Below are positions 10,188-38,746 of a stretch of DNA of 40,739 bases, piece after piece. Position numbers and translations under genes: made by a program. Every line of letters starts with the position of its first letter. Position 1 is the first letter of the stretch. A model generated the notes under the pieces. That model saw only the letters and a program-made list of their open reading frames with translations, was not told the DNA's origin and searched no databases. Source of the DNA: Lachnospiraceae bacterium (GTDB taxonomy: Bacteria > Bacillota > Clostridia > Lachnospirales > Lachnospiraceae); contig JAJPXU010000003.1 of NCBI GenBank assembly GCA_021205305.1, positions 1-40,739 on the forward strand, in the 5' to 3' direction.

Positions 10188-10959
10188 GATACAGAATGCG
10201 TTTGCGCATGGAAAAGCGTTTATCCCGTTCATCACCTGCGGCGACCCATCGCTGGCGGTGACGGAGCAGCTGGTTTACGCGATGGAAAAAGCGGGAGCAG
10301 ACCTGATTGAGCTTGGCATTCCGTTTTCTGACCCGACCGCGGAAGGCCCGGTCATCCAGGAGGCGAACAACCGCGCCCTCTCTGGCGGTGTGACTACGGA
10401 CAAGATCTTTGACATGGTAAAAAAAATCCGCGAGAATACGCAGATCCCGATGGTGTTCATGACCTACGCGAATGTTGTATTTTCCTATGGCATTGAACGA
10501 TTCGTGAAGACAGCGGCGGAGGTCGGCATGGATGGCATCATCCTCCCCGACGTACCTTTTGAAGAAAAAGAAGAGTTCGCCGCTACCTGCCGTGAAAACG
10601 GCCTGGCGCTGGTCTCTCTGATCGCGCCGACTTCCCATGAGCGTGTCGCGCAGATTGCGTCCGCGGCAGAGGGCTTCATCTACTGCGTTTCCTCCCTGGG
10701 TGTGACCGGTGTCCGCTCCGAGATCACGACCGACATCGGTGAGATGGTGCGGCTGGTGCGTGCAGCCTCCGACATTCCGTGTGCGATCGGTTTTGGTATC
10801 TCCACACCGGAGCAGGCTGCGAAAATGGCCAGAGAGGCCGACGGCGTCATCGTCGGTTCTGCGATTGTGAAACTTTGCAAAGAGTACGGCGCGGACTGTG
10901 TGCCGAAGGTCGCAGAGTATGTGAAGAGCATGAAAGACGCGATTCGGGTGCGGCATTAG
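10180..10959 (+). CDS. trpA: Tryptophan synthase alpha subunit
   Basis: A 259-residue TIM-barrel protein that cleaves indole-3-glycerol phosphate to indole and glyceraldehyde phosphate. The catalytic Glu (position 49 in the Salmonella enzyme) lies in [11 protein letters not shown]. The next motif reads [10 protein letters not shown] instead of the more common DPxADGP, so the second catalytic Asp (Salmonella Asp60) is replaced by Glu. [40 protein letters not shown] and [10 protein letters not shown] follow in order. The start at 10180 sits inside trpB after GGGGAGG. The final codons and stop lie inside a dispersed palindromic repeat (10949-10988), so the repeat supplies the C-terminus. It is the last gene of the operon, before a strong terminator. 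Confidence 0.97.
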
Positions 10960-10988
10960 CCGCAAGACTCTTTGCCCGGCCCTGCGCA
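10949..10988 (-). repeat. GC-rich palindromic repeat R1, copy A (partial)
   Basis: Read on the minus strand, this matches copies at 14197-14262 and 19385-19447 almost base for base: ATGCGCAGGGCCGGGCAA, then AGTCTTGCGGCTAATGCCGC. The copy is cut off where trpA coding sequence begins, and covers the trpA stop codon (10957-10959). The inner hairpin GCGGC/GCCGC is kept, while the outer stem is only three pairs. Confidence 0.8.
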
Positions 10989-10989
10989 T

Positions 10990-11028
10990 AAAAAAGCCGC
11001 AGAACATGGATTTGTTTGCGGCTTTTTT
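10990..11028 (+). terminator. Terminator of the trp operon
   Basis: AAAAAAGCCGCA (10990-11001) pairs perfectly with TGCGGCTTTTTT (11017-11028) around a 15-nt loop. A-run and T-run make it usable from both strands. Confidence 0.92.
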
Positions 11029-11185: not shown

Positions 11186-12769
11186 ATGCAGAAAACTTTT
11201 AATGTCACGGGGGTCTGTGTGCCTGAAAGAAACTATATGGTGGATGTCAGTGACCGTGTGGAACGCATCGTTGAGGACTACGTATCGCCGGGAAAATATT
11301 TTACAATGAACCGTGCGAGACAGTATGGCAAGACGACGATGTTATATCTGCTTGAGGAAAGACTGAAAGAGTCGTTTATCGTACTTCGATTGAGCTTTGA
11401 AGCCGCAGACGAATATTTTGTTTCTCCTGCACTTCTTGCGGAAGGCCTGACGATGGATATAGCGGACTGTCTGCGCAGACAGAGTATAGAGGAAAGGATC
11501 ATTCGTGCATGGGAGGAGCCTGTTTCTGAGCGGTTTCCGATGCGCAGTCTGGGAGTAAAGATAACAAACCTTTGCAAAGCGTGTAAAAAGAAAGTGGTTT
11601 TGATGATTGACGAGGTGGACAGAAGTTCTGATAATCAGATTTTTCTTTCTTTCCTTGGTCTTCTTCGCGCAAAGTATCTGGATCAGGCGTCCGGATGGGA
11701 CACCACTTTTTGGTCAGTCATTCTGGCAGGGGTATACGATATAAAAAATTTAAAACAGAAAATGCATCCGAATGTGGAATCGAAATACAATAGTCCATGG
11801 AACATTGCGGTCGATTTTACAGTTGACATGAGTTTTTCTGCCAGCGATATCGCGTCAATGTTGGTGCAGTATGAAAAGGACTGGGAAACCGGAATGGATA
11901 CGGAAAAGATCAGTCAATTATTATACGACTATACTTCGGGTTATCCGTTTCTTGTGTCCAGACTGTGTCAGATCATGACAGCTTCATTGAGTGAAAACAG
12001 TTCAAAAGAAGAGCGAGAAGCTGCCTGGTCTGCAGGAGCGTTTCAGGACGCGGTTCGAGAGATGCTGAAAAAGCCAAATACGCTCTTTGACGATATGATA
12101 AAAAAACTGGCTGATTTTCCAAAATTAAGAGAAATGATCTACAGCATCCTGTTTCAGGGGAAAAGATATTCTTATGAAGCGGACAATGAACGTATCCGTA
12201 TTGGGGAAATGTTTGGTTTTCTGAAGGAAAAAGATGGCGCAGTTGTGGTTGCAAACCGGATATTTGAAATGAAACTGTATAATCTGTTTCTTTCAGAAGA
12301 AGAGACGGAAGAAAAAATAATCTCTGTTGCAGATACAGAGAAAAACCAATTTGTTTTGGGCGGACATCTGCAAATGGAATTGATTTTGAAAAAATTCTGT
12401 GAATACTTTGAAGAGATCTATGCTGATGCAGATGAGCGGTTTATTGAAGATAATGGAAGACGTATTTTTCTGATCTTCCTGAAACCTATCATAAATGGGA
12501 GCGGGAATTATTATATTGAGTCCAGAACCAGAAGCAGGAAGCGCACGGATGTGATCATTGATTACAAAGGCATCCAGGAGGTTCTTGAAATGAAAATCTG
12601 GCATGGGGAAGAATATAATAAACGCGGCGAAAAGCAGCTGTTGGAATACATGGATGCTTACCATTTGCAAAAAGGATATCTGTTGAGCTTTAATTTTAAT
12701 AAGAAGAAACAGGTTGGAGTAAAACAGGTTATTCTTGGGGACAGAGTGCTGGTAGAAGCTGTAGTGTAA
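11186..12769 (+). CDS. AAA-like ATPase fused to PD-(D/E)XK nuclease
   Basis: A 527-residue protein. The N-terminal half is an AAA-like (AAA_35-type) ATPase: FTMNRARQYGKTTML (about residues 45-59) is the Walker A region, with Gly-Lys-Thr kept in a shortened loop, and KKVVLMIDEVDR (about 134-145) is Walker B. A helical middle follows with SGYPFLVSRLCQIM. The C-terminal 130 residues hold a PD-(D/E)XK nuclease core: TDVIIDY (Asp), LEMKIW (Glu-x-Lys) and GEKQLLEYM (Gln). Cellular role and substrate are unknown; such proteins are scattered through Clostridia and Bacteroidetes genomes, often in many copies, and defence or selfish roles have been guessed. The ATG at 11186 follows GGAGGAG. The gene is AT-richer than the trp genes, stands alone with its own promoter, and looks acquired. 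Confidence 0.85.
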   Translation: MQKTFNVTGVCVPERNYMVDVSDRVERIVEDYVSPGKYFTMNRARQYGKTTMLYLLEERLKESFIVLRLSFEAADEYFVSPALLAEGLTMDIADCLRRQSIEERIIRAWEEPVSERFPMRSLGVKITNLCKACKKKVVLMIDEVDRSSDNQIFLSFLGLLRAKYLDQASGWDTTFWSVILAGVYDIKNLKQKMHPNVESKYNSPWNIAVDFTVDMSFSASDIASMLVQYEKDWETGMDTEKISQLLYDYTSGYPFLVSRLCQIMTASLSENSSKEEREAAWSAGAFQDAVREMLKKPNTLFDDMIKKLADFPKLREMIYSILFQGKRYSYEADNERIRIGEMFGFLKEKDGAVVVANRIFEMKLYNLFLSEEETEEKIISVADTEKNQFVLGGHLQMELILKKFCEYFEEIYADADERFIEDNGRRIFLIFLKPIINGSGNYYIESRTRSRKRTDVIIDYKGIQEVLEMKIWHGEEYNKRGEKQLLEYMDAYHLQKGYLLSFNFNKKKQVGVKQVILGDRVLVEAVV

Positions 12770-12886
12770 CAAATAAAGTACTCTGGCGGGGTTTAATCAT
12801 GTGGTAGCAGAATCAGTTGGTTCTTATCCCCTGAATATTTTTTTCAAATCAGGCCATACTCCAAAGGAAACAGTGAAAATAATGGA

Positions 12887-12958
12887 AATGCCCCCTCGCG
12901 TACGCTCGGCGGCAGGACACGCCCATCAATCAAAAAACGCTTCGCGTTGGATGGGCGC
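12887..12958. repeat. Composite palindromic element upstream of the spore protein gene
   Basis: Outer arms CGCCCATC (12920-12927) and GATGGGCG (12950-12957) enclose an 8-nt spacer on the left and an inner hairpin AACGC-TTC-GCGTT. The preceding sequence shares GCCCCCTC (12888-12895) and TCGGCGGCAGG (12906-12916) with the element inserted in valS (17835-17863). The rest of 12770-12886 shows nothing I can name. Confidence 0.75.
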
Positions 12959-12975
12959 CAAAAAGGAGTGTGACT

Positions 12976-13164
12976 ATGTCTGAAAAAAAGCTTATTTGGG
13001 AGGAACTCAGCCCGGATGACAAATTAAAGTATGAGATTGCGGAAGAACTGGGCTTGCTGGAAAAAGTGAAAACGCTGGGATGGAAATCCCTGACCGCAAA
13101 GGAGACTGGCCGTATCGGCGGCCTGATGACAAAAAAGAAAAGAGAGAAAGACCAGACGCTATGA
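12976..13164 (+). CDS. Small acid-soluble spore protein, alpha/beta type
   Basis: A 62-residue DNA-binding protein of the alpha/beta-type SASP family, which coats spore DNA and protects it from UV and heat. The protein shows LKYEIAEELGLLEKV, then GWKSLTAKETGRIGGLMTKK. The EIAxELG stretch is the spore protease (GPR) recognition region, and GxIGGxMTKK is the DNA-binding segment, in the form found in Lachnospiraceae rather than Bacillus. The ATG at 12976 follows AAGGAG; a GTG at 12970 is too close to that site. Expression is expected in the forespore, but I could not define a sigma-G promoter. Its stop overlaps the holA start by ATGA, an odd pairing with a replication gene. Confidence 0.88.
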   Translation: MSEKKLIWEELSPDDKLKYEIAEELGLLEKVKTLGWKSLTAKETGRIGGLMTKKKREKDQTL

Positions 13165-14158: not shown

Positions 14159-14180
14159 ATACTTGACATATGACAAGTAT
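14159..14180. promoter_or_regulatory. Candidate operator: perfect inverted repeat over the -35 box
   Basis: ATACTTG (14159-14165) and CAAGTAT (14174-14180) form a perfect 7-bp inverted repeat around ACATATGA. Arms extend further with TACCC/GGGTA (14152-14187) with two mismatches. The repeat covers the -35 box of the promoter just below. It is a plausible binding site for the HTH protein encoded at 15100-15915. Confidence 0.6.
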
Positions 14181-14191
14181 TGGGGTATTCT
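14163..14191 (+). promoter_or_regulatory. Promoter of the HipA-like module
   Basis: A perfect TTGACA (14163-14168) and TATTCT (14186-14191) are 17 bases apart. The transcript leader would include repeat R1 copy B and the hairpin at 14257-14282. Confidence 0.7.
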
Positions 14192-14196
14192 GTCTT

Positions 14197-14262
14197 ATGT
14201 GCAGGGCCGGGCAAGGAGTCTTGCGGCTAAAGCCGCACCCGGCGCGCGCGGGCGAATAGGAG
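14197..14262 (+). repeat. GC-rich palindromic repeat R1, copy B
   Basis: About 65 bp closely matching 19385-19447. Outer arms GCCGGG (14206-14211) and CCCGGC (14238-14243) enclose an 11-nt spacer on the left and an inner hairpin GCGGC-TAAA-GCCGC (14223-14236). The copy continues into GCGCGCGGGCGAATAGG. Confidence 0.85.
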
Positions 14263-14282
14263 GCAAAAGAAGGCCGCCTCCT
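14257..14282. repeat. Hairpin in the leader of the HipA-like gene
   Basis: TAGGAGGC is inverted as GCCTCCTA around a 10-nt centre. It lies about 20 bases before the coding start. It has no T-run, so it is not a terminator. Confidence 0.6.
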
Positions 14283-14303
14283 ACTCGATTCCGGGAGGTT
14301 TTT

Positions 14304-15125
14304 ATGAGAGATATTGTGTCAGAAAAACAGGATCTTACATATTTATCCTGGACGAGAACCCGGAATTCTTCCGGAACGGCCGGATCATTCCTGAAAGCAT
14401 ATTCCGAATTGGGCGGGGAAAAGATTTATTATAAGCTTTCTAATTATGACACGATGCGCGGTGTGATTGGTCATGAATGTGTAAATGAATTAATTGTTGA
14501 CCGCCTGCTCACAATTTTGGGGGTTGAGCACCTGCATTATCAGCTGATCCATGCGGATATCCTGGTAAGTGAACAGCAGCAGGAAGTATTTCTTTGTGCT
14601 TCCAGGGACTTTAAGAAGAGCGGAGAGAGCAAGATTGCATTGGATGTCTATTACGACAGGGAACATATGGAAGGAGAAAAGCCTCTGGACTTTTGTATCC
14701 GCAATGGATGGGCGGATTATGTCTATACGATGTTTGCCGTTGACTATCTGATCTTAAACCGGGATCGTCATGGAGCGAATATTGAGGTGCTGCGCGACAG
14801 CCGGAAGCGGACGATCCGTCTGGCTCCACTTTTTGATCACGGACTGTCTCTGCTGTTTAGCTGCCTGACGGAGGAAGCAATTGCAGGCTATGATGTGATG
14901 GAGGATCGGCTTACCAATACCTGGCTTGGTTCACGGTCAACGCTGGACAATCTGAAGCTGATACCGATGGGGCAATTTCCAAAGCTGAAATGTCTGCTCC
15001 CTGAACACAAGGAGGTACTCATGCAGGGGCTGAATGATGTGATTTCACAAAATCTGCGGGATAAAATATGGGAAATGATCTGGAAACGGTGGTGCGTATA
15101 TGAAGCTATTTGCGATCAGAGATGA
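14304..15125 (+). CDS. HipA-like protein kinase (kinase core)
   Basis: A 273-residue protein that I place with HipA/CtkA-type serine/threonine kinases from its motifs. GEKIYYKLSNYD holds a candidate ATP-binding Lys; ECVNELIVDRLLTILGV fits the following helix; NRDRHGANI (residues 152-159) is the HipA catalytic loop, with Asp154 and Asn159; LAPLFDHG (173-180) is the metal-binding Asp motif, Asp178. HipA itself is about 440 residues, with an N-terminal subdomain that is missing here; a similar-looking region sits in the next gene instead. Start at 14304 follows GGGAGG. It overlaps the next gene by 26 bases. In HipBA modules the kinase phosphorylates a tRNA synthetase and arrests growth; whether this one is toxic is unknown. 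Lower GC than neighbours suggests acquisition. Confidence 0.8.
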   Translation: MRDIVSEKQDLTYLSWTRTRNSSGTAGSFLKAYSELGGEKIYYKLSNYDTMRGVIGHECVNELIVDRLLTILGVEHLHYQLIHADILVSEQQQEVFLCASRDFKKSGESKIALDVYYDREHMEGEKPLDFCIRNGWADYVYTMFAVDYLILNRDRHGANIEVLRDSRKRTIRLAPLFDHGLSLLFSCLTEEAIAGYDVMEDRLTNTWLGSRSTLDNLKLIPMGQFPKLKCLLPEHKEVLMQGLNDVISQNLRDKIWEMIWKRWCVYEAICDQR

Positions 15126-15992: not shown

Positions 15993-16313
15993 GAAGTAAA
16001 TAGCTGTGAGGAACAATGATTCGTAATCACAGCCGGAATAGTGAAGAGAAAGAGGAGTACGCATCACGGCGCCGACAGAGAGAAGGGTTCACTGGCTGGA
16101 AGACCCTTTGGGATGGACGGATGCGGAATGTGGCTTTTGAACTGAGTGGCTGAAGCGGATGCGCCAAATCCGTGTGTAAGGCATTCCGGGGCTTCCCGTT
16201 ACAGGAGATGGAGATACGGATGAAAGTGTGCGCTTTTGTCCGCAAGAAAAGGTGGTACCGCGAGACATTCGCCCTTTGTATACGCTTGTATGCAGAGGGC
16301 GCTTTTATTTTTT
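15993..16313 (+). promoter_or_regulatory. T-box leader of valS (tRNA-Val sensing)
   Basis: Stem I is clear: GAAAG pairs with CTTTT at the base; AGTA (16056-16059) faces GAAT (16126-16129); CGCATC (16060-16065) pairs with GATGCG (16120-16125); AGAGAG lies at 16077-16082. The specifier in the GAA-N-codon frame is GTG (16130-16132), a valine codon, agreeing with the gene. The T-box AAGGTGGTACCGCGAG is at 16249-16264. Uncharged tRNA-Val should favour the antiterminator and so raise valS expression. Confidence 0.93.
16270..16313 (+). terminator. T-box-controlled terminator before valS
   Basis: CGCCCT with TTGTATAC (16270-16283) pairs with GTATGCAGAGGGCG (16288-16301) around GCTT, and is followed by a T-rich tract. 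Confidence 0.9.
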
Positions 16314-16337
16314 ACCAACCGAAAAAAGGAGGAGACT

Positions 16338-19337
16338 ATGAGCAAAGAACTGGCAAAGACCTATGACCCGAAGGGTCTGGAAGACCGGATCTACCAGAAC
16401 TGGCTGGATAAGGGATATTTCCACGCCGAGGTGAATCCGGAGAAGAAACCGTTTACGATTGTAATTCCGCCGCCCAATGTGACGGGACAGCTGCACATGG
16501 GACATGCGCTGGATGAGACGATGCAGGATATCTTGATCCGTTTTAAGCGGATGCAGGGCTATGAGGCGCTCTGGCAGCCGGGTACGGACCACGCCGCGAT
16601 CGCGACGGAGGTCAAGGTGACAGAGATGCTGAAAAAGAAGGGCATCGATAAGGATGAGATTGGCCGAGAGGAATTCCTGAAATACGCGTGGGCGTGGAAG
16701 GAGGAGTACGGCGGAAAGATCACGAATCAGCTGAAGAAGCTCGGCGCCTCCGCAGACTGGGAGCGGGAGCGCTTTACGATGGATGAGGGCTGCTCGAAAG
16801 CGGTGGAGGAAGTGTTTATCCGCCTGTACAATAAGGGTTATATTTACAAGGGCTCCCGTATCATCAACTGGTGTCCGGTCTGCCAGACCTCAATTTCTGA
16901 CGCGGAAGTGATTCATGAGGATCAGGATGGATTTTTCTGGCACATCAATTATCCGGTGGTGGGCGAACCGGGGCAGTTCGTGGAGATCGCGACGACCCGT
17001 CCGGAGACGCTGCTCGGGGATACCGCGGTGGCGGTGAACCCGGAGGATGAGCGTTACACACATCTGGTGGGTAAGATGCTGGAGCTTCCGCTGACCGGCC
17101 GGCAGATTCCGGTGATCGCGGATGAATATGTGGATAAGGAGTTCGGAACCGGCTGTGTGAAGATTACGCCGGCACACGACCCGAATGACTTCGAAGTAGG
17201 CAAACGCCATAATCTGCCGGAGATCAACATTCTCAATGATGACGCGACGATCAATGAGCTGGGCGGCAAGTACGCGGGGATGGACCGCTACGAGGCGCGC
17301 AAGGCGATGGTGGCGGATCTGGATGCGCTCGGTCTGCTGGTAAAGGTAGTGCCGCATTCACACAGCGTAGGCACTCATGACCGCTGCAAGACAACGGTGG
17401 AGCCGATGATCAAACCGCAGTGGTTTGTGCGCATGAAAGAGATGGCAGAACCGGCAATTGAGGCGCTCAGGCGCGGAAAAATTAATGTTCCTGGCGCAGA
17501 TCTCGCAGCGGAGGCTGTAGCGGAGTCGGAAGCAGAGGCGGCTGATGGCGCAGCGAAAGCAGATGGAGAGATTGCAAGCACATCAAATCCTGCAACGGAT
17601 GGACTGATGACAGATAGTGGTGACGGAAACAAATCCGATTTCGAAGGAACCTTAACCTTTGTCCCGGATCGCTTTGATAAGATTTATCTGCATTGGCTGG
17701 AGAACATCAAGGACTGGTGCATTTCCCGCCAGCTCTGGTGGGGGCATCGGATTCCGGCTTATTATTGCGATGACTGCGGGGAAATGGTAGTAGCGCGTGA
17801 AATGCCGAAGATCTGTCCGAAGTGCGGCAGGGGAAGCGCCCCCTCCTGCCAGTCGGCGGCAGGTCGCAGTGCCGATTCCGAAAGTGCTTCGCACTTGGGC
17901 ACTGCTCACTTGACACAGGATCCGGATACGCTGGACACCTGGTTTTCCTCCGCACTCTGGCCATTCTCGACACTCGGCTGGCCGGAGAAAACACCGGAAA
18001 TGGATTATTTCTACCCAACGGATGTGCTGGTGACCGGCTATGATATTATTTTCTTCTGGGTTATCCGTATGGTATTTTCCGGTATTGAGCAGACCGGGAA
18101 GGTGCCGTTCCATCATGTACTGATCCACGGACTGGTGCGCGATTCCCAGGGCCGCAAGATGAGCAAATCCCTCGGAAACGGCATTGACCCGCTGGAAATC
18201 ATTGACCAGTACGGTGCGGATGCGCTGCGGCTGACACTGATCACGGGCAATGCGCCGGGCAATGATATGCGCTTCTATATGGAGCGGGTGGAGGCGTCCC
18301 GCAACTTTGCGAACAAGGTGTGGAATGCGTCGCGTTTTATTATGATGAATCTGGACAAAGCGGCGGAAGCAGGCGGTGCGGCGGGAATCCCGGCGCAGAT
18401 AGAGATTTCCGAGCTGACCAGTGCGGATAAGTGGATTCTTTCGAAGGTCAATGATCTGGCGAAGGATGTGACCGACAATATGGACCGCTATGAGCTTGGT
18501 ATTGCGGTGCAGAAGGTCTATGACTTCATCTGGGAAGAGTTCTGTGACTGGTACATTGAGATGGTGAAGCCGCGTCTTTACAGCGAGACGGACACCTCCA
18601 AGACAGCGGCGCTCTGGACGCTGAAGACGGTGCTGACGAATGCACTGAAGCTGCTGCATCCGTTCATGCCGTTCATTACCGAAGAGATTTTCTGTACCTT
18701 ACAGAACACGGCGGAGGAAAGTGCGTGCGGCGTGAACATATCCGCTGGTGCGGGGCCATCCCGGACGACTCCTTCCGGATACCAGATGCCGGAAATTGCG
18801 GAATCCATTATGATCTCCTCCTGGCCGGAATGGAAGGAAGCGTGGAACTTTGAAGAGGATGAGAAAGCGGTTGAGACGATCAAAGAAGCCGTGCGCGCGA
18901 TCCGCAATGCCCGTACTGGCATGAATGTGCCGCCAAGCAGAAAAGCACAGGTATATGTGGTAGCGGAAAGCGAGGCAGTTCGCACGATTTTTGAGAACGG
19001 CAAGGTCTTTTTTGCAACACTGGGTTACGCGAGCGAGGTGCATGTGCAGGCAGACAAGACGGGCATCAGCGACGACGCGGTATCGGCTGTGATTCCGGAG
19101 GCGGTTGTTTATATGCCGTTTGCGGATCTGGTAGATCTGGATAAGGAACTGGCGCGTCTGCAAAAGGAAGAGGAGCGTCTGACGAAAGAGCTGGCTCGTG
19201 TCAATGGAATGCTTGGAAATGAGAAATTTACGAGCCGGGCGCCGCAGGCAAAGATTGACGAAGAAAAAGCGAAGCTTGTGAAATATACACAGATGATGGA
19301 GCAGGTGAAAGGGCAGTTAAAGCGGCTGCAGAGCTAA
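16338..19337 (+). CDS. valS: Valyl-tRNA synthetase with three insertions
   Basis: A 999-residue class I synthetase that charges tRNA-Val. It has the HIGH-type motif HMGHALDE, the editing domain with [15 protein letters not shown], the [11 protein letters not shown] region with zinc-type Cys pairs (CDDC, CPKC), the KMSKS motif RKMSKSLGN, and a C-terminal coiled-coil arm ([20 protein letters not shown]). The family is usually about 880 residues. The excess lies in three places: about 387-436 (Ala/Glu/Ser/Asp-rich, before the [15 protein letters not shown] segment), about 497-524 (between CPKCG and [11 protein letters not shown]), encoded by palindromic DNA, and about 790-820 before ISSWPEW. All catalytic motifs survive. 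Start at 16338 follows AAAGGAGG. It is monocistronic behind a T-box. Confidence 0.97.
17827..17910. repeat. Palindromic element inserted in frame in valS
   Basis: GGCAGGGG and CCCCTCCTGCC form one hairpin (17826-17850). CCTGCC...GGCAGG overlaps it (17845-17863). AGTGCC...GGCACT (17868-17903) form an outer stem around an inner hairpin AAGTGC-TTC-GCACTT, with the spacer on the left only. The element shares GCCCCCTC and TCGGCGGCAGG with the intergenic element at 12887-12958, and CCTGCCAGT with the addB element. It adds about 28 codons without breaking the frame. Confidence 0.8.
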
Positions 19338-19344
19338 GAAAGAG

Positions 19345-19383
19345 AAAAGGCGTCGTGCGGACAAAACCGCATGACGCCTTTTT
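19345..19383. terminator. Bidirectional terminator between valS and the minus-strand gene
   Basis: AAAAGGCGTCGTGCGG pairs with CCGCATGACGCCTTTTT around ACAAAA with one wobble-type mismatch; A- and T-runs flank it on both sides, so it can end both converging transcripts. Confidence 0.88.
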
Positions 19384-19384
19384 G

Positions 19385-19447
19385 ATGCGCAGGGCCGGGC
19401 AAGGTGTTTTGCGGCTTAAGCCGCCCCGGCCCGCGCGGGCGAGTAGG
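19385..19447 (+). repeat. GC-rich palindromic repeat R1, copy C
   Basis: Same family as 14197-14262. Outer arms GGCCGGG (19393-19399) and CCCGGCC (19425-19431) enclose an 11-nt left spacer and the inner hairpin GCGGC-TTAA-GCCGC (19411-19424). Relative to copy B the outer stem gains a pair (GG/CC), so pairing is kept. Confidence 0.85.
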
Positions 19448-20240: not shown

Positions 20241-20324
20241 CAGGCTGTTTGCCCTGCCCTACTTTACCGGAAAAGTATGTCTAAAGTGTGTCGATGCGGA
20301 AAAAACACGGACAGAATTGATTGG

Positions 20325-20353
20325 TTGTATTATGGCGCGGATTGTGCTATCCT
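20325..20353 (+). promoter_or_regulatory. Possible promoter of addBA
   Basis: TTGTAT (20325-20330) and TATCCT (20348-20353) are 17 bases apart, about 36 bases before the addB start. Both boxes are moderate. Confidence 0.4.
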
Positions 20354-20389
20354 GAATGGAATCCAGATTTGCACCAGAGGAGGAATCGA

Positions 20390-23300
20390 ATGTCTTTGCA
20401 GTTTATATTTGGAAATTCCGGCAGCGGAAAATCGCGTTTCTTATATCAAAGGATGATTGAGGAATCGAGGCTTCACCCGGAACGCAGTTATCTTGTGATT
20501 GTGCCGGAACAGTTCACGATGCAGACCCAGCGGGATCTGGTGCTGCTGCACCCGGACGGCGGTATTATGAACATCGATGTCCTCAGCTTTCGGCGTCTGG
20601 CGCATCGGGTATTTGAGGAAGTTGGAGCTGACCGCAGGACGATTCTGACTGAGACCGGCAAAAATCTGATGCTGCGCAGGGTGGCGGAACAGCAAAAAGA
20701 TCAGCTGAAAGTGCTTGGCTCGCGGATGAACCGTACGGGATATGTATCGGAGGTAAAATCCATTCTCTCAGAACTGATGCAGTATGAGGTGTCCGATTAT
20801 GACCTGCAATGCATGCTGGAATCGGTGGAGAACAGGCCTCTTCTGCACGCGAAACTGGAGGATGTCCGAGTGCTCTACCGGGCTTTTCTGGAGTATCAGC
20901 GGGATCGTTTTATGAAGCCGGAAGAATTGCTGGAAGTACTTGCGCAGGTGGCGGGAAAGTCAAAGCTTCTGCGGCAGAGCGTACTTGCGTTTGACGGTTA
21001 TGCAGGATTCACGCCTTCGCAGCTTTCGGTTCTGGAAAAACTTCTTGTGGTCTGTCCGAAGATTTATCTGACCGTGACCATTGATGCGCGGGAATCCTTT
21101 TTTGGTAAAATCAGGGAGCATGAGCTGTTCGCACCGAGCCGCCGCCTGATCAAAAGCGTGGCGGAACGCTGTGAAAAAACAATGCGCATGGGAAAAGGCG
21201 AAAACCGCAGCCACCAAGAGACCTCGGATACGAGAGATGGCGAAATGCGCGGCTATGAAGAGCCGATTGTATTGGGAACGCTCCCGCGCTTTTCCAGGGA
21301 TGGGGCGCTGCGTCATCTGGAGCAGAATTTATTTCGGAAAAAGCAGCTTCCATATGAAGGGGAATCCGATGAAATTTCACTTCATGAGCTTTCTTCTCCG
21401 GCGCAGGAGGTGCATTTTGCGGCGCGGACGATCTCACATCTGGTGCGGGAAGGGCAGTACCGCTACCGTGAAATCGCGGTGATTGCCGGAGATCTGAATG
21501 CGTACGGGGATTATGTCAAAAATATTTTCCCGAGCTATGGTATCCCGGCTTTCGTGGATGAGACGAGAGGAATTCTTCTGAATCCCTGTCTGGAATTTGT
21601 GCGCGGGGCGCTGGCGATGGTGCGGGATGATTTTTCGCGTGAGAGTGTGTTTCGTTTTTTGCGGACCGGGCTGGCGGGTCTTTCTTCGGACGAAGCAGAC
21701 CGTCTGGAAAACTATGTGATCGCGGCGGGGATCCGCGGATATCGGCGCTGGGAAGAAGAATGGACCTGGTGTCCGGAGGGGCTTCGCACGGTGACGGGTC
21801 TGGGTGAAAACATGCAGGTTCCCGAAGCTTCGGGCGAAGAAATCCATCTCGCAGGTCTGGAATTGTATAACGCTCTGCGTGCGCGTTTTATAGACCGTGT
21901 TGGTTCGTTCACAGAGGAGATGCGGGTGAAAAATCGTCCGCTTCGTGCGTATGCGCAGGCTTTGTATCATCTGTTGGCGGACTGCAATGTGCAGCAGCAG
22001 ATGAAAAATCTGGAAAACCAGGCGGGAGAGCTTTCCTCGGAGTATCGGCAGGTATATCCGGTTCTGATCGGGCTGCTGGATGAAATGGTGGATCTGCTTG
22101 GGGAAGAGCGGATGGACTGCGGGGAATTTTCAGAGATATTGGACGCAGGGCTTTCGGAAGCAAGAATCGGAATCATTCCTCCTGGCATCGATCAGGTACA
22201 GGTGGGTGATATTCGCCGTTCCCGGCTTTCGAATGTAAAAATATTGTTTTTCCTTGGGCTGAATGATGGCTGGGTACCTGCCCGCCCGGACGGCGGCGGG
22301 ATTGTCTCGGATACCGAACGGGAAATTTTGCTGAACGCCGGGGCCTCTCTGGCGCCTTCCGCGCGGGAAAACAGCTATATTCAGCGCTTCTATCTTTACC
22401 AGAATCTGACAAAGCCGCAGGATCGGCTGTATTTGTCCTGGTGTTTAAGCAGCGGAGATGGGACGGCAATGCGGCCATCCTATCTGGTTTCTGTACTCAG
22501 GCGATTGTTTCCGAAGATGCAAACGCAGCGGGAGCAGGACGCAGGGACGATGTTTTCTCAGGTGACTTCAAAAGAGAATGGGATGTTGTACCTGCTGCAT
22601 GGGCTGCAGAAAGTGCGGAATTCGGCGGCAGCTGCCCCTGGTCAGACAGAGACGTGCCGAAGGGAATCAATCCAAAATCAGCGGGAAATGCAAGATTTTG
22701 GGAGAAATCAGGGCGAACAGTCTGACGCACAGGAAACACACACGGAGCAGAGTGCCTGGCTTGAGCTGTATCGGCTGTATTTGAAAGATGACGCGTACCG
22801 GGAACGGGTTCGCACCCTCGTCGGCGCGGCTTTCCTGCGTGGAAAAGTTCCGGATACGGAGCATCTGGAGGCACAGACCGCGCGGGAACTCTACGGAATG
22901 TTCCGGCAGGGCGGTGCTTCAGGAGGAATATCGGCGAGCGTCACGCGGCTGGAATTGTTTGCGGGCTGCGCGTTTTCCCATTTTGCTTCCTACGGCTTGC
23001 GGCTGCGAAGCCGTGAAGAGTATGGGCTGCAGGCGACTGACCTGGGAACACTGTTTCACGAAGCGATTGAATTTTTTTCACGGCAAATGCTTGCGGAGGG
23101 CTTTGACCCGGGCGAGCGTCCATACGAAGAACAGGCCAGACGCATGGATCAGTGCGTGGATATGGCGGCAGAACGGTATGGGGATGGCATTCTGCATGCG
23201 AACGCGCGCGATGAATATACAATCCGGCGGCTGAAACGGATTCTGCGGCGTACGGTTTGGGTGATGCGTGAGCAGACGAGGGCAGGGCGGTTCCGACCGG

Positions 23301-24235
23301 TTGGTTTTGAGATTTCATTCGCGGATACGGACAATCTGGACGCGACGAGAGTGCGCCTGGGAGAAAATGGACAGATTCGTCTGCAGGGGCGGATTGACCG
23401 CATCGACACCGCGGAGACGGAGGACACGGTCTATGTGAAAGTGGTTGATTATAAATCCGGTATGACGCAGTTTGACCCGGTGTCGCTTTACTATGGGCTT
23501 CAGATGCAGCTGATTGTTTACCTGAATGCGGCACTTGAGATGGAACGGAAGCTGCACCCGGACAAAAAGGTCGTCCCCGCCGGTGTTTTCTATCACCGGA
23601 TGCAGGACCCGGTATTGGAAAAGGAGGAGGATCCGGAGCGAGCGAGGGAGACTTTGCTGAAAAAAATGCGGCCGAACGGCCTGGTAAACAGCGATGGTCC
23701 GGTGATTCGCCTTTTTGACGGGGCGATGAGCGGAGATTCGCTGGTGATTCCCGTAGGTTTCAAGAAGGATGGGACGCTCAAAGCAACCTCCAGCGTTGTA
23801 ACAACGGAGCAGTTTGAGGCGCTTTCCGGATACGTGACTGAACTTCTGTGCAGGATGGGCGGGGAAATTCTCGATGGAATGATCGAGGCACGTCCGTATG
23901 TGGATAAAAACAGAAGCGCCTGCGATTACTGTCTTTATGCGGATGTCTGCGGCTTCGACCGCAAACTCCCCGGCCGCTGCGAAAAACGGCAGCCGCAGCT
24001 GACAGCCGACGAAGTAATTGAGCGCCTGCCCAACGCAAAGCGTTCAGAAAATGGCAGGCGCGACCTGCCGCCGGTGCTGCCTGCCAGTGGCAGGCGTTTA
24101 GCACCGACCGAAGCGAGAGCGGAGAACGAAGGTGAGGGGGCGATACCCGAGCGCCTATCGACAGGGGATAGCCTGAGAAAGGAGGTGACGACACATGGCA
24201 GTGAAGTGGACGAAGGAACAGCAGCAGGTGATTGA
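20390..24235 (+). CDS. addB: ATP-dependent helicase/nuclease subunit B (AddB)
   Basis: A 1281-residue subunit of the AddAB complex, which resects double-strand breaks up to Chi and loads RecA. It has an N-terminal Walker A (FGNSGSGKSRF, Lys14), an inactive helicase fold, and a C-terminal nuclease domain with GRIDRID and VKVVDYKSG. The iron-sulphur cluster cysteines are visible: Cys860 (FAGCAFSHF) and Cys1178, Cys1181 and Cys1187 (CDYCLYADVC). AddB is usually about 1150-1170 residues. Excess lies in a polar insertion near residues 740-790 and in about 75 residues after the Fe-S motif, where the DNA is a palindromic element (24022-24106). This tail overlaps addA by 41 bases. The start at 20390 follows AGAGGAGG. 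Confidence 0.95.
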   Translation: MSLQFIFGNSGSGKSRFLYQRMIEESRLHPERSYLVIVPEQFTMQTQRDLVLLHPDGGIMNIDVLSFRRLAHRVFEEVGADRRTILTETGKNLMLRRVAEQQKDQLKVLGSRMNRTGYVSEVKSILSELMQYEVSDYDLQCMLESVENRPLLHAKLEDVRVLYRAFLEYQRDRFMKPEELLEVLAQVAGKSKLLRQSVLAFDGYAGFTPSQLSVLEKLLVVCPKIYLTVTIDARESFFGKIREHELFAPSRRLIKSVAERCEKTMRMGKGENRSHQETSDTRDGEMRGYEEPIVLGTLPRFSRDGALRHLEQNLFRKKQLPYEGESDEISLHELSSPAQEVHFAARTISHLVREGQYRYREIAVIAGDLNAYGDYVKNIFPSYGIPAFVDETRGILLNPCLEFVRGALAMVRDDFSRESVFRFLRTGLAGLSSDEADRLENYVIAAGIRGYRRWEEEWTWCPEGLRTVTGLGENMQVPEASGEEIHLAGLELYNALRARFIDRVGSFTEEMRVKNRPLRAYAQALYHLLADCNVQQQMKNLENQAGELSSEYRQVYPVLIGLLDEMVDLLGEERMDCGEFSEILDAGLSEARIGIIPPGIDQVQVGDIRRSRLSNVKILFFLGLNDGWVPARPDGGGIVSDTEREILLNAGASLAPSARENSYIQRFYLYQNLTKPQDRLYLSWCLSSGDGTAMRPSYLVSVLRRLFPKMQTQREQDAGTMFSQVTSKENGMLYLLHGLQKVRNSAAAAPGQTETCRRESIQNQREMQDFGRNQGEQSDAQETHTEQSAWLELYRLYLKDDAYRERVRTLVGAAFLRGKVPDTEHLEAQTARELYGMFRQGGASGGISASVTRLELFAGCAFSHFASYGLRLRSREEYGLQATDLGTLFHEAIEFFSRQMLAEGFDPGERPYEEQARRMDQCVDMAAERYGDGILHANARDEYTIRRLKRILRRTVWVMREQTRAGRFRPVGFEISFADTDNLDATRVRLGENGQIRLQGRIDRIDTAETEDTVYVKVVDYKSGMTQFDPVSLYYGLQMQLIVYLNAALEMERKLHPDKKVVPAGVFYHRMQDPVLEKEEDPERARETLLKKMRPNGLVNSDGPVIRLFDGAMSGDSLVIPVGFKKDGTLKATSSVVTTEQFEALSGYVTELLCRMGGEILDGMIEARPYVDKNRSACDYCLYADVCGFDRKLPGRCEKRQPQLTADEVIERLPNAKRSENGRRDLPPVLPASGRRLAPTEARAENEGEGAIPERLSTGDSLRKEVTTHGSEVDEGTAAGD
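22672..22701. repeat. Inverted repeat inside the addB insertion
   Basis: CCAAAATC is inverted as GATTTTGG over 14 intervening bases, inside the stretch of addB that encodes a polar, low-complexity insertion (about 22612-22760). Confidence 0.45.
24020..24110. repeat. Composite palindromic element forming the addB 3' end
   Basis: Hairpin A: GCGCCTGCC (24022-24030) and GGCAGGCGC (24053-24061) enclose ACGC-AAA-GCGT and a spacer on the right. Hairpin B: CGGTGCT (24072-24078) and AGCACCG (24100-24106) enclose CCTGCCA-G-TGGCAGG. Hairpin B and the following GACCGAAG align with the reverse complement of the intergenic element at 32648-32860, with paired changes in both stems. It lies in the addB frame downstream of the last conserved residue. 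Confidence 0.78.
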
Positions 24236-37018: not shown

Positions 37019-37094
37019 AGCATAATATGTCGTGTGCGCTTTTTGCACACGACGAAGGCCAGCCCATCGCGCAGCGATTGCAAATGGCTGGCTA
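37019..37094. repeat. GCCAGCC palindromic repeat, copy 1
   Basis: Hairpin GTCGTGTGC / GCACACGAC (37030-37053 region) is followed by GAAGG and a second hairpin: GCCAGCC and GGCTGGC around TCGC-GCA-GCGA with a spacer on the right. About 75 bp match 38673-38746. It separates the LacI gene from the solute-binding protein gene. Confidence 0.8.
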
Positions 37095-38672: not shown

Positions 38673-38746
38673 GCCATATATCATGTGTGCTTGCCACGCA
38701 TGACGAAGGCCAGCCCTCGCGAAGCGATTATAAATGGCTGGCTACC
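38673..38746. repeat. GCCAGCC palindromic repeat, copy 2
   Basis: Matches 37019-37094: GACGAAGGCCAGCC, then TCGC-GAA-GCGA, a right spacer, AAATGGCTGGCTA. The two copies flank the solute-binding protein gene in direct orientation. The upstream hairpin arms differ (ATGTGTGC/CACGCAT), yet still pair. Confidence 0.8.

Follow-up and report, generated by a model that had tools for sequence, protein, structure and literature searches.

Rickettsia palindromic elements (RPEs; RPE-1, -2, -3 and others) are short palindromic repeats of 100-150 bp with a conserved peptide that lie inside the open reading frames (ORFs) of unrelated genes, among them the gene for the phenylalanyl-tRNA synthetase beta subunit, and keep the frame of their hosts (PMC10969869, PMC3767692). 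A 2024 review holds a similar mechanism to be conceivable in other prokaryotes (PMC10969869). MITEs, including ERIC and Correia, are likewise short and dispersed, with intragenic cases (PMC10969869), and REPs are palindromic sequences tagged by GTAG or CGTC, some of which reside inside genes (PMC3733652). The Rfam family GA-cis is filed as an sRNA, and in the Rfam 15 paper it appears in a list of families with improved structures; this list was the sole occurrence of the term in the literature searched, where no description of GA-cis as a mobile or intragenic element was found. Among titles and the opening lines of abstracts, in-frame palindromic or MITE insertions were found for Rickettsia, Wolbachia and other cases, and none for Lachnospiraceae.

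We analyzed a window of 40,739 nucleotides from a Lachnospiraceae bacterium (assembly GCA_021205305.1, contig JAJPXU010000003.1, positions 1 to 40,739), in which the stretches 17828-17909 and 12880-12963 pass the GA-cis cut-off over the full model. Although filed as an sRNA, GA-cis behaves here as a mobile element, also inside genes. Dispersed in the genome, inserted in both orientations and in six frames, with filled and empty sites between close species and gap lengths in multiples of three, it is very probably a non-autonomous mobile palindromic DNA element, the in-frame insertions of which survive as protein loops. Like the RPEs, which a first-pass annotation of this DNA had named as the parallel, GA-cis inserts in frame into pre-existing ORFs (24 of 45 copies, with empty counterparts at 17 of 22 sites examined). 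Unlike the longer RPEs with their one conserved peptide, it adds a net 72-78 nt at the coding sites compared and uses six frames; moreover, it belongs to another phylum and has empty sites in close species. GA-cis is best read as analogous to the RPEs and not as a member of them, set apart by length and peptide. It also resembles MITEs in being short and dispersed and in showing signs of target duplication (end repeats of at least 5 nt in 12 of 38 copies, a modest signal), but no terminal inverted repeats are evident by eye and the arms are internal. It shares with REPs, which span 20-40 bp, the palindromic structure and the intragenic location of some copies; unlike in the REP/RAYT system, the own genome has no Pfam Y1_Tnp transposase. 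In this way a catalogued RNA family is re-read as a mobile element, and the frame-keeping invasion of genes described for Rickettsia is extended to gut Lachnospiraceae.

The window contains two GA-cis copies and a T-box as its only matches above the Rfam gathering cut-offs, and the features concerned are as follows.

12880-12963, minus strand: second GA-cis copy (45.7 bits), intergenic, between an ORF ending at 12769 and an ORF starting at 13080
16035-16279, plus strand: T-box leader of valS (RF00230, 96.3 bits), ordinary
16236-19337, plus strand: valS ORF with the insert (Pfam tRNA-synt_1, Anticodon_1 and Val_tRNA-synt_C)
17828-17909, minus strand: GA-cis element inserted in valS (RF02987, 50.7 bits, E 5.2e-8)
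24018-24151, plus strand: third GA-cis copy, of the long form that carries an additional hairpin module (31.2 bits, under the cut-off of 34.7)

The valS product finds its best solved match in valyl-tRNA synthetase (1gax) and presumably starts at the ATG at 16338, judging by the starts of ValRS proteins. In the ORF reading, the insert sits directly behind the CPKCG motif, and it matches RF02987 over the full model at 50.7 bits against a gathering cut-off of 34.7; used as a DNA query against the own genome, it retrieved nine further locations at E <= 0.001. Compared to its orthologues, valS is longer here by a net 72 nt, or 24 codons in frame, at about 17829-17900, with boundaries ambiguous by a few nucleotides. 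The hairpin consists of an outer stem GCAGTGCC/GGCACTGC and an inner stem AAGTGC-TTC-GCACTT; its fold z-score is only -1.76, so that the folding energy alone is unremarkable. The first-pass annotation had noted a palindromic insert of about 28 extra codons behind CPKCG, with nested hairpins and a relative at 12887-12958: the insert is present at that place, both stems fold as it described and both stretches lie above the GA-cis cut-off, while the count comes down to 24 codons. Alignment with the Thermus enzyme (1gax) puts the insert between the zinc-knuckle stretch and the following conserved block, the placement of the gap by the aligner being uncertain. In an AlphaFold2 model of ValRS, the insert residues 532-557 are coil with pLDDT below 50, as is much of the catalytic part; the model as a whole (mean pLDDT 62.3, with 335 of 1033 residues below 50) is too poor to show the insert loop and decides nothing on the insert. 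Further stretches absent from most relatives occur near residues 417-470 and 825-855, where the matches of other genomes break.

Covariance-model search revealed 45 GA-cis copies over the cut-off in the own genome (G000), mostly matched over 76-89 nt, in addition to a few long forms of ~130 nt. They share a conserved CTGCCGCCGA...GAGGGGGCGTTTCC half and a two-level hairpin, the arms of which vary between copies (40 distinct 5' arms among the 45) yet still pair. The longest stem formed by a copy's own arms averages 8.8 bp, compared to 5.1 bp for arms taken from different copies, so the earlier remark that the stems differ but pair holds over all 45. This own-arm against mixed-arm test was used because RNAalifold missed the outer stem in the alignment, which took in 40 of the 45 copies. 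Within the genus, at least 23 of 47 genomes (own included) carry GA-cis, each with 1 to at least 59 matches at E <= 1e-4, and 24 gave no match; at most 72 candidates were scored a genome, which makes these counts lower bounds. An even draw across the family yielded GA-cis in at least 21 of 299 genomes, own included, again a lower bound with at most 14 candidates scored a genome, and 16 genomes representing other families of the order gave no match. The closest copies at different sites are 95-96% alike between species, and within the own genome the best likeness, tandem arrays excepted, is 91% between contigs and 93% inside one contig. A recent transposition was not caught, since copies at different sites are not near-identical. 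The idea of a unique stem for every insertion was rejected on the grounds of such 95-96% relatives, which occur at different sites of other species.

Tandem arrays of GA-cis were seen at two loci, L154 with a period of 73 and L155 with an array that contains unread bases, and adjacent matches also occur in genomes G269 and G323. Two genomes placed apart from the copy-rich clade in the valS tree, G038 and G042, have GA-cis embedded in a larger repeat that aligns over 475 to 580 bp; inverted ends of 30 nt were seen in at least one copy of this repeat. At the same chromosomal site of G042 and G038 (L177 and L169), this larger repeat stands in opposite orientations relative to the flanks.

At 24 of the 45 own copies, an open frame extends 60 codons or more to each side; one of these, in IMP cyclohydrolase (C36), passes via a frame of the other strand, the gene frame having 58 codons on one side. 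A copy on contig C173 and another on C89 have less open sequence around them, but homologues exist for their flanks, which brings the coding copies to 26. The valS gene is one of about two dozen host genes in its own genome. Pfam and NCBIfam assigned the hosts to Era, PheT, DapL, [FeFe] hydrogenase, beta-galactosidase, IMP cyclohydrolase, GH94 and alpha-L-rhamnosidase; further hosts comprise a HAD hydrolase, two CoA-dehydratase activases, GT8, GH13, ABC and MFS transporters, and others. With the insert inside, the products of era, dapL and pheT still reach equivalog scores of 341, 588 and 595 bits (cut-offs 237, 365 and 403, respectively), and Pfam domains span the insert in several host proteins. 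The 26 coding copies occupy all six strand/phase combinations, numbering 7, 7 and 2 on one strand and 5, 3 and 2 on the other. Inside genes, GA-cis most likely adds a short extra protein loop upon translation. The long-form copy at 24018-24151 is also read in frame on translation, near the C-terminus of ORF 20321-24235, an addB by TIGR02773 at 858.2 bits, just under the cut-off of 903.7. Four host proteins were also scanned against a defence library, with general HTH and ATPase-type hits as the sole result.

The same 60-codon rule holds for 34 of 57 copies in six other species of the genus and for none of 20 copies from 13 genomes of other genera, that is, 58 of 102 in the genus against 0 of 20 outside (Fisher P 5e-7), where the 57 and the 20 are high-scoring matches listed and not a random sample. 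The elements differ in composition, with a GC content of 63% in this genus versus 53% in other genera. Compared to their own shuffles, the genus copies have more open frames (3.91 versus 3.48 in the own genome, 3.77 versus 3.45 in the other species), and those of other genera have fewer (1.55 versus 2.04). We infer that this genus gave rise to a stop-poor form of GA-cis, which made coding DNA accessible to the element. At the 5' edge of the hairpin, 19 of the 20 copies from other genera (L322-L341) carry GAGGA or GGAGG, and 13 carry AGGAGG; such a motif recurs after the 3' end in some of them. Judged by its letters, the 5'-edge motif is possibly a candidate ribosome-binding site.

The valS site was read in 30 of the 47 genus genomes, own included; 26 of these loci are empty and four are filled. 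The spacing between two fixed valS motifs is 123 nt in 26 loci, 195 nt in three and 246 nt in one, corresponding to an excess of 72 nt and, in one species, of 72+51 nt. The filled genomes G000, G009, G017 and G018 have related sequences inserted at the same nucleotide, and the inserts of G000 and G009 are identical at the protein level. On a tree of the rest of valS, these four genomes do not form a clade, and their distribution requires four gains or losses even if the count is restricted to well-supported branches. Such patchy presence along the tree suggests that the insert was later exchanged between species or precisely lost. The G018 insert has an extra 51-nt palindromic module inside. 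In G012, a separate GA-cis insertion lies elsewhere in valS (L025, 3294-3373), and the gene has an apparent frameshift upstream of it.

Empty and filled states were also found at other genes. The joined flanks of 25 coding sites were searched in five relatives, and 22 sites were examined at the fetched loci. Beyond valS, 17 of these 22 sites have at least one relative with an empty site between two flanks each at least 80% identical, giving 46 empty loci in total. The empty relatives have 3 to 15 nt at the junction, as opposed to 72 to 87 nt where relatives of equal flank quality are filled, and the net insert between most of the filled and empty relatives compared is 75-78 nt. All of 73 gap lengths are multiples of three at partner loci that were located by their flanks alone; the own coding sites had been picked as open frames, so their openness is no independent evidence. 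For example, the dapL site is filled in G000 and G015 and empty in G009, G019, G020 and G021, and the IMP cyclohydrolase site likewise varies between filled and empty among relatives. In nine further species, among the matches listed, the junctions in era, the beta-galactosidase gene, GH13, dapL and C163 spare at most about 33 nt, which is too little room for a GA-cis element. The GT8 site reads as filled in G013, and pheT of G018 and GH94 of G011, filled by spacing, align to the insert at 93% and 88%, respectively. The empty site of C161 is less sure, as it belongs to a family with many paralogues.

The first-pass annotation had inferred that a dispersed element entered an essential gene and was kept in frame, and had advised aligning ValRS from close strains. 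Those strains do have empty sites, and DNA relatives of the insert are scattered genome-wide, which agrees with its inference; the combination that it named as speaking against this, an insert in all close relatives with protein-level conservation and no DNA relation to intergenic repeats, did not occur.

Among the matches listed, the hydrogenase ones of G016 and G017 are interrupted at the junction by gaps of different size. At the C104 site (L153), in a linker of an acyl-CoA dehydratase activase, the matches of several species break with differing gap sizes, and this linker seems to be an insertion hot spot.

Analysis of the element ends covered 38 of the 45 copies, with seven omitted (four array copies, the long form and two without the end pattern). 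End repeats of at least 5 nt flank 12 of the 38, compared to 5.2 for mis-paired ends, and repeats of at least 6 nt flank six, compared to 1.3 (P 0.001 each); the remaining 26 have no end repeat of 5 nt. The longest common end word averages 4.24 nt versus 3.56 for mis-paired ends, a value reached in 0 of 1000 permutations, though the signal is modest. Clear single cases are the copy in GH13, bracketed by CCACAG, and the ABC exporter site of G021, where the copy is bracketed by CCATAG. Terminal inverted repeats were not evident by eye at the ends of 40 aligned copies, in which the pairing arms are internal. We propose that a trans-acting transposase-like enzyme would insert the mobile element and duplicate a short stretch of the target; frame-breaking insertions would be purged, and those that leave the frame open in tolerant loops would persist and be translated as some 24-26 extra residues.

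No mobilizer was found among the candidates considered. A right-end pattern matched the genome 45 times, compared to once for its reversed control, and outside weaker GA-cis matches and the C23 array no match was found beyond the list of 45 copies in this 91% complete genome. Within this incomplete assembly, the pattern lends no support to an autonomous partner that shares the right end, as every match falls in GA-cis or the C23 array. Tyrosine transposases of the Pfam family Y1_Tnp number zero in G000, G008, G010, G015 and G017, the last four of which are copy-rich with 22-51 GA-cis matches as lower bounds; mobilization by IS200/RAYT was rejected, as Y1 transposases do not track the GA-cis copy number. 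Carriage by phages or plasmids was not supported either: one copy was compared, with 0 matches in either collection, and a strict GA-cis pattern had no match in viral contigs.

The divergence of shared insertions bears on what is being conserved. Among 19 pairs from 10 sites, 17 show less divergence in the insert than in its flanks; over all 21 pairs, which also count two pairs filled by length (L242, decayed, and L226, apparently unrelated) that were kept out of the 19-pair tests, insert and flank divergence are equal at 9.6% and 10.1% (P 0.57). Third positions of the 19 pairs differ at 31 of 444 (7.0%) in the inserts versus 20-27% in all distance bins of the flanks, including 20% within 24 nt of the insert. 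A recombination tract behind this low divergence was not supported, as the flanks show no clear gradient. Family-conserved columns of shared intragenic copies change at 13 of 513 positions (2.5%) and variable columns at 38 of 479 (7.9%; P 1.4e-4), a comparison partly biased because the own copies were picked by model score. From these rates, the nucleotide sequence may be conserved, or the inserts may be younger than the species. Because of the 7.0% versus 20% third-position change and the four gains or losses in valS, we tentatively entertain that the intragenic element is still selected or exchanged as nucleic acid, leading a double life as a protein loop and as mobile or structural DNA. On one reading of this, the insert alone would be transferred into the same site in a homing-like manner; on another, the hairpin would have a genome-wide function.

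The low third-position change and the slower conserved columns would also be expected if GA-cis were a structured RNA, either an sRNA or a cis-regulator, with intragenic copies kept as antisense or embedded regulatory RNAs. This agrees with the Rfam type label "Gene; sRNA", with the covariation of the stems between copies, and with the copies of other genera, none of them in a long ORF and all but one bearing a motif like a ribosome-binding site. We nevertheless regard it as unlikely, since unrelated hosts, both orientations and six frames are more in keeping with a mobile element than with a fixed regulator, and presence and absence between close species together with the tandem arrays favor the former.

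A functional peptide in valS, selected for its sequence, would account for the protein-identical inserts of G000 and G009 and for a site filled in four lineages that form no clade. However, over the 21 pairs the inserts have hardly any codon periodicity (positions 1+2 differ at 87 of 970, or 9.0%, and position 3 at 52 of 485, or 10.7%), whereas the flanks are periodic (3.5% and 23.1%, respectively), so the conserved thing is not the peptide; as different genes use different frames and hence different peptides, we consider this explanation very unlikely. Bypassing elements are a known precedent for skipping by the ribosome, and an insert that is present in the gene and absent from the protein, either removed from the RNA or skipped, would suit the strong hairpin, the little protein-like conservation and the essential host enzymes; it is still more improbable, because skipping would put no such constraint on the insert length, and 73 of 73 gaps are multiples of three. 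That the insert arose through misassembly or misbinning of a metagenome-assembled genome, for which one might cite the 173 contigs and 91% completeness of the own genome and the apparent frameshift in the GA-cis-bearing valS of G012, is the least credible of all, as the same valS insert recurs in G009, G017 and G018 and two to four genomes share the filled state at other sites.

With GA-cis taken as a mobile element that survives in frame, the natural filled and empty pairs in era, pheT, dapL and valS offer a way to measure the cost of an arbitrary loop in important enzymes, and they also give access to the origin of new protein segments.

The window holds other repeats as well. Eight places had been listed at the outset as material for a covariance model, and this list mixes several families: the entries at 12920 and 17868 are GA-cis, as is the one at 24022 below the cut-off, while 14206 and 19393, as well as 37052 and 38709, are other repeats and 2521 has no GA-cis match. 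A second repeat family at 10938-10996, 14190-14248 and 19375-19427 is 84-86% alike and unrelated to GA-cis, with one copy near the start of ORF 14163-15125. The repeat pair 37025-37094 and 38676-38744 is 78-87% alike and has hairpins. The extra hairpin module of the long-form GA-cis copies (24018-24151; L161, 1501-1630) is ~50 nt long, and a similar module is found at a different position in the valS insert of G018 (L011), as if it had moved on its own.
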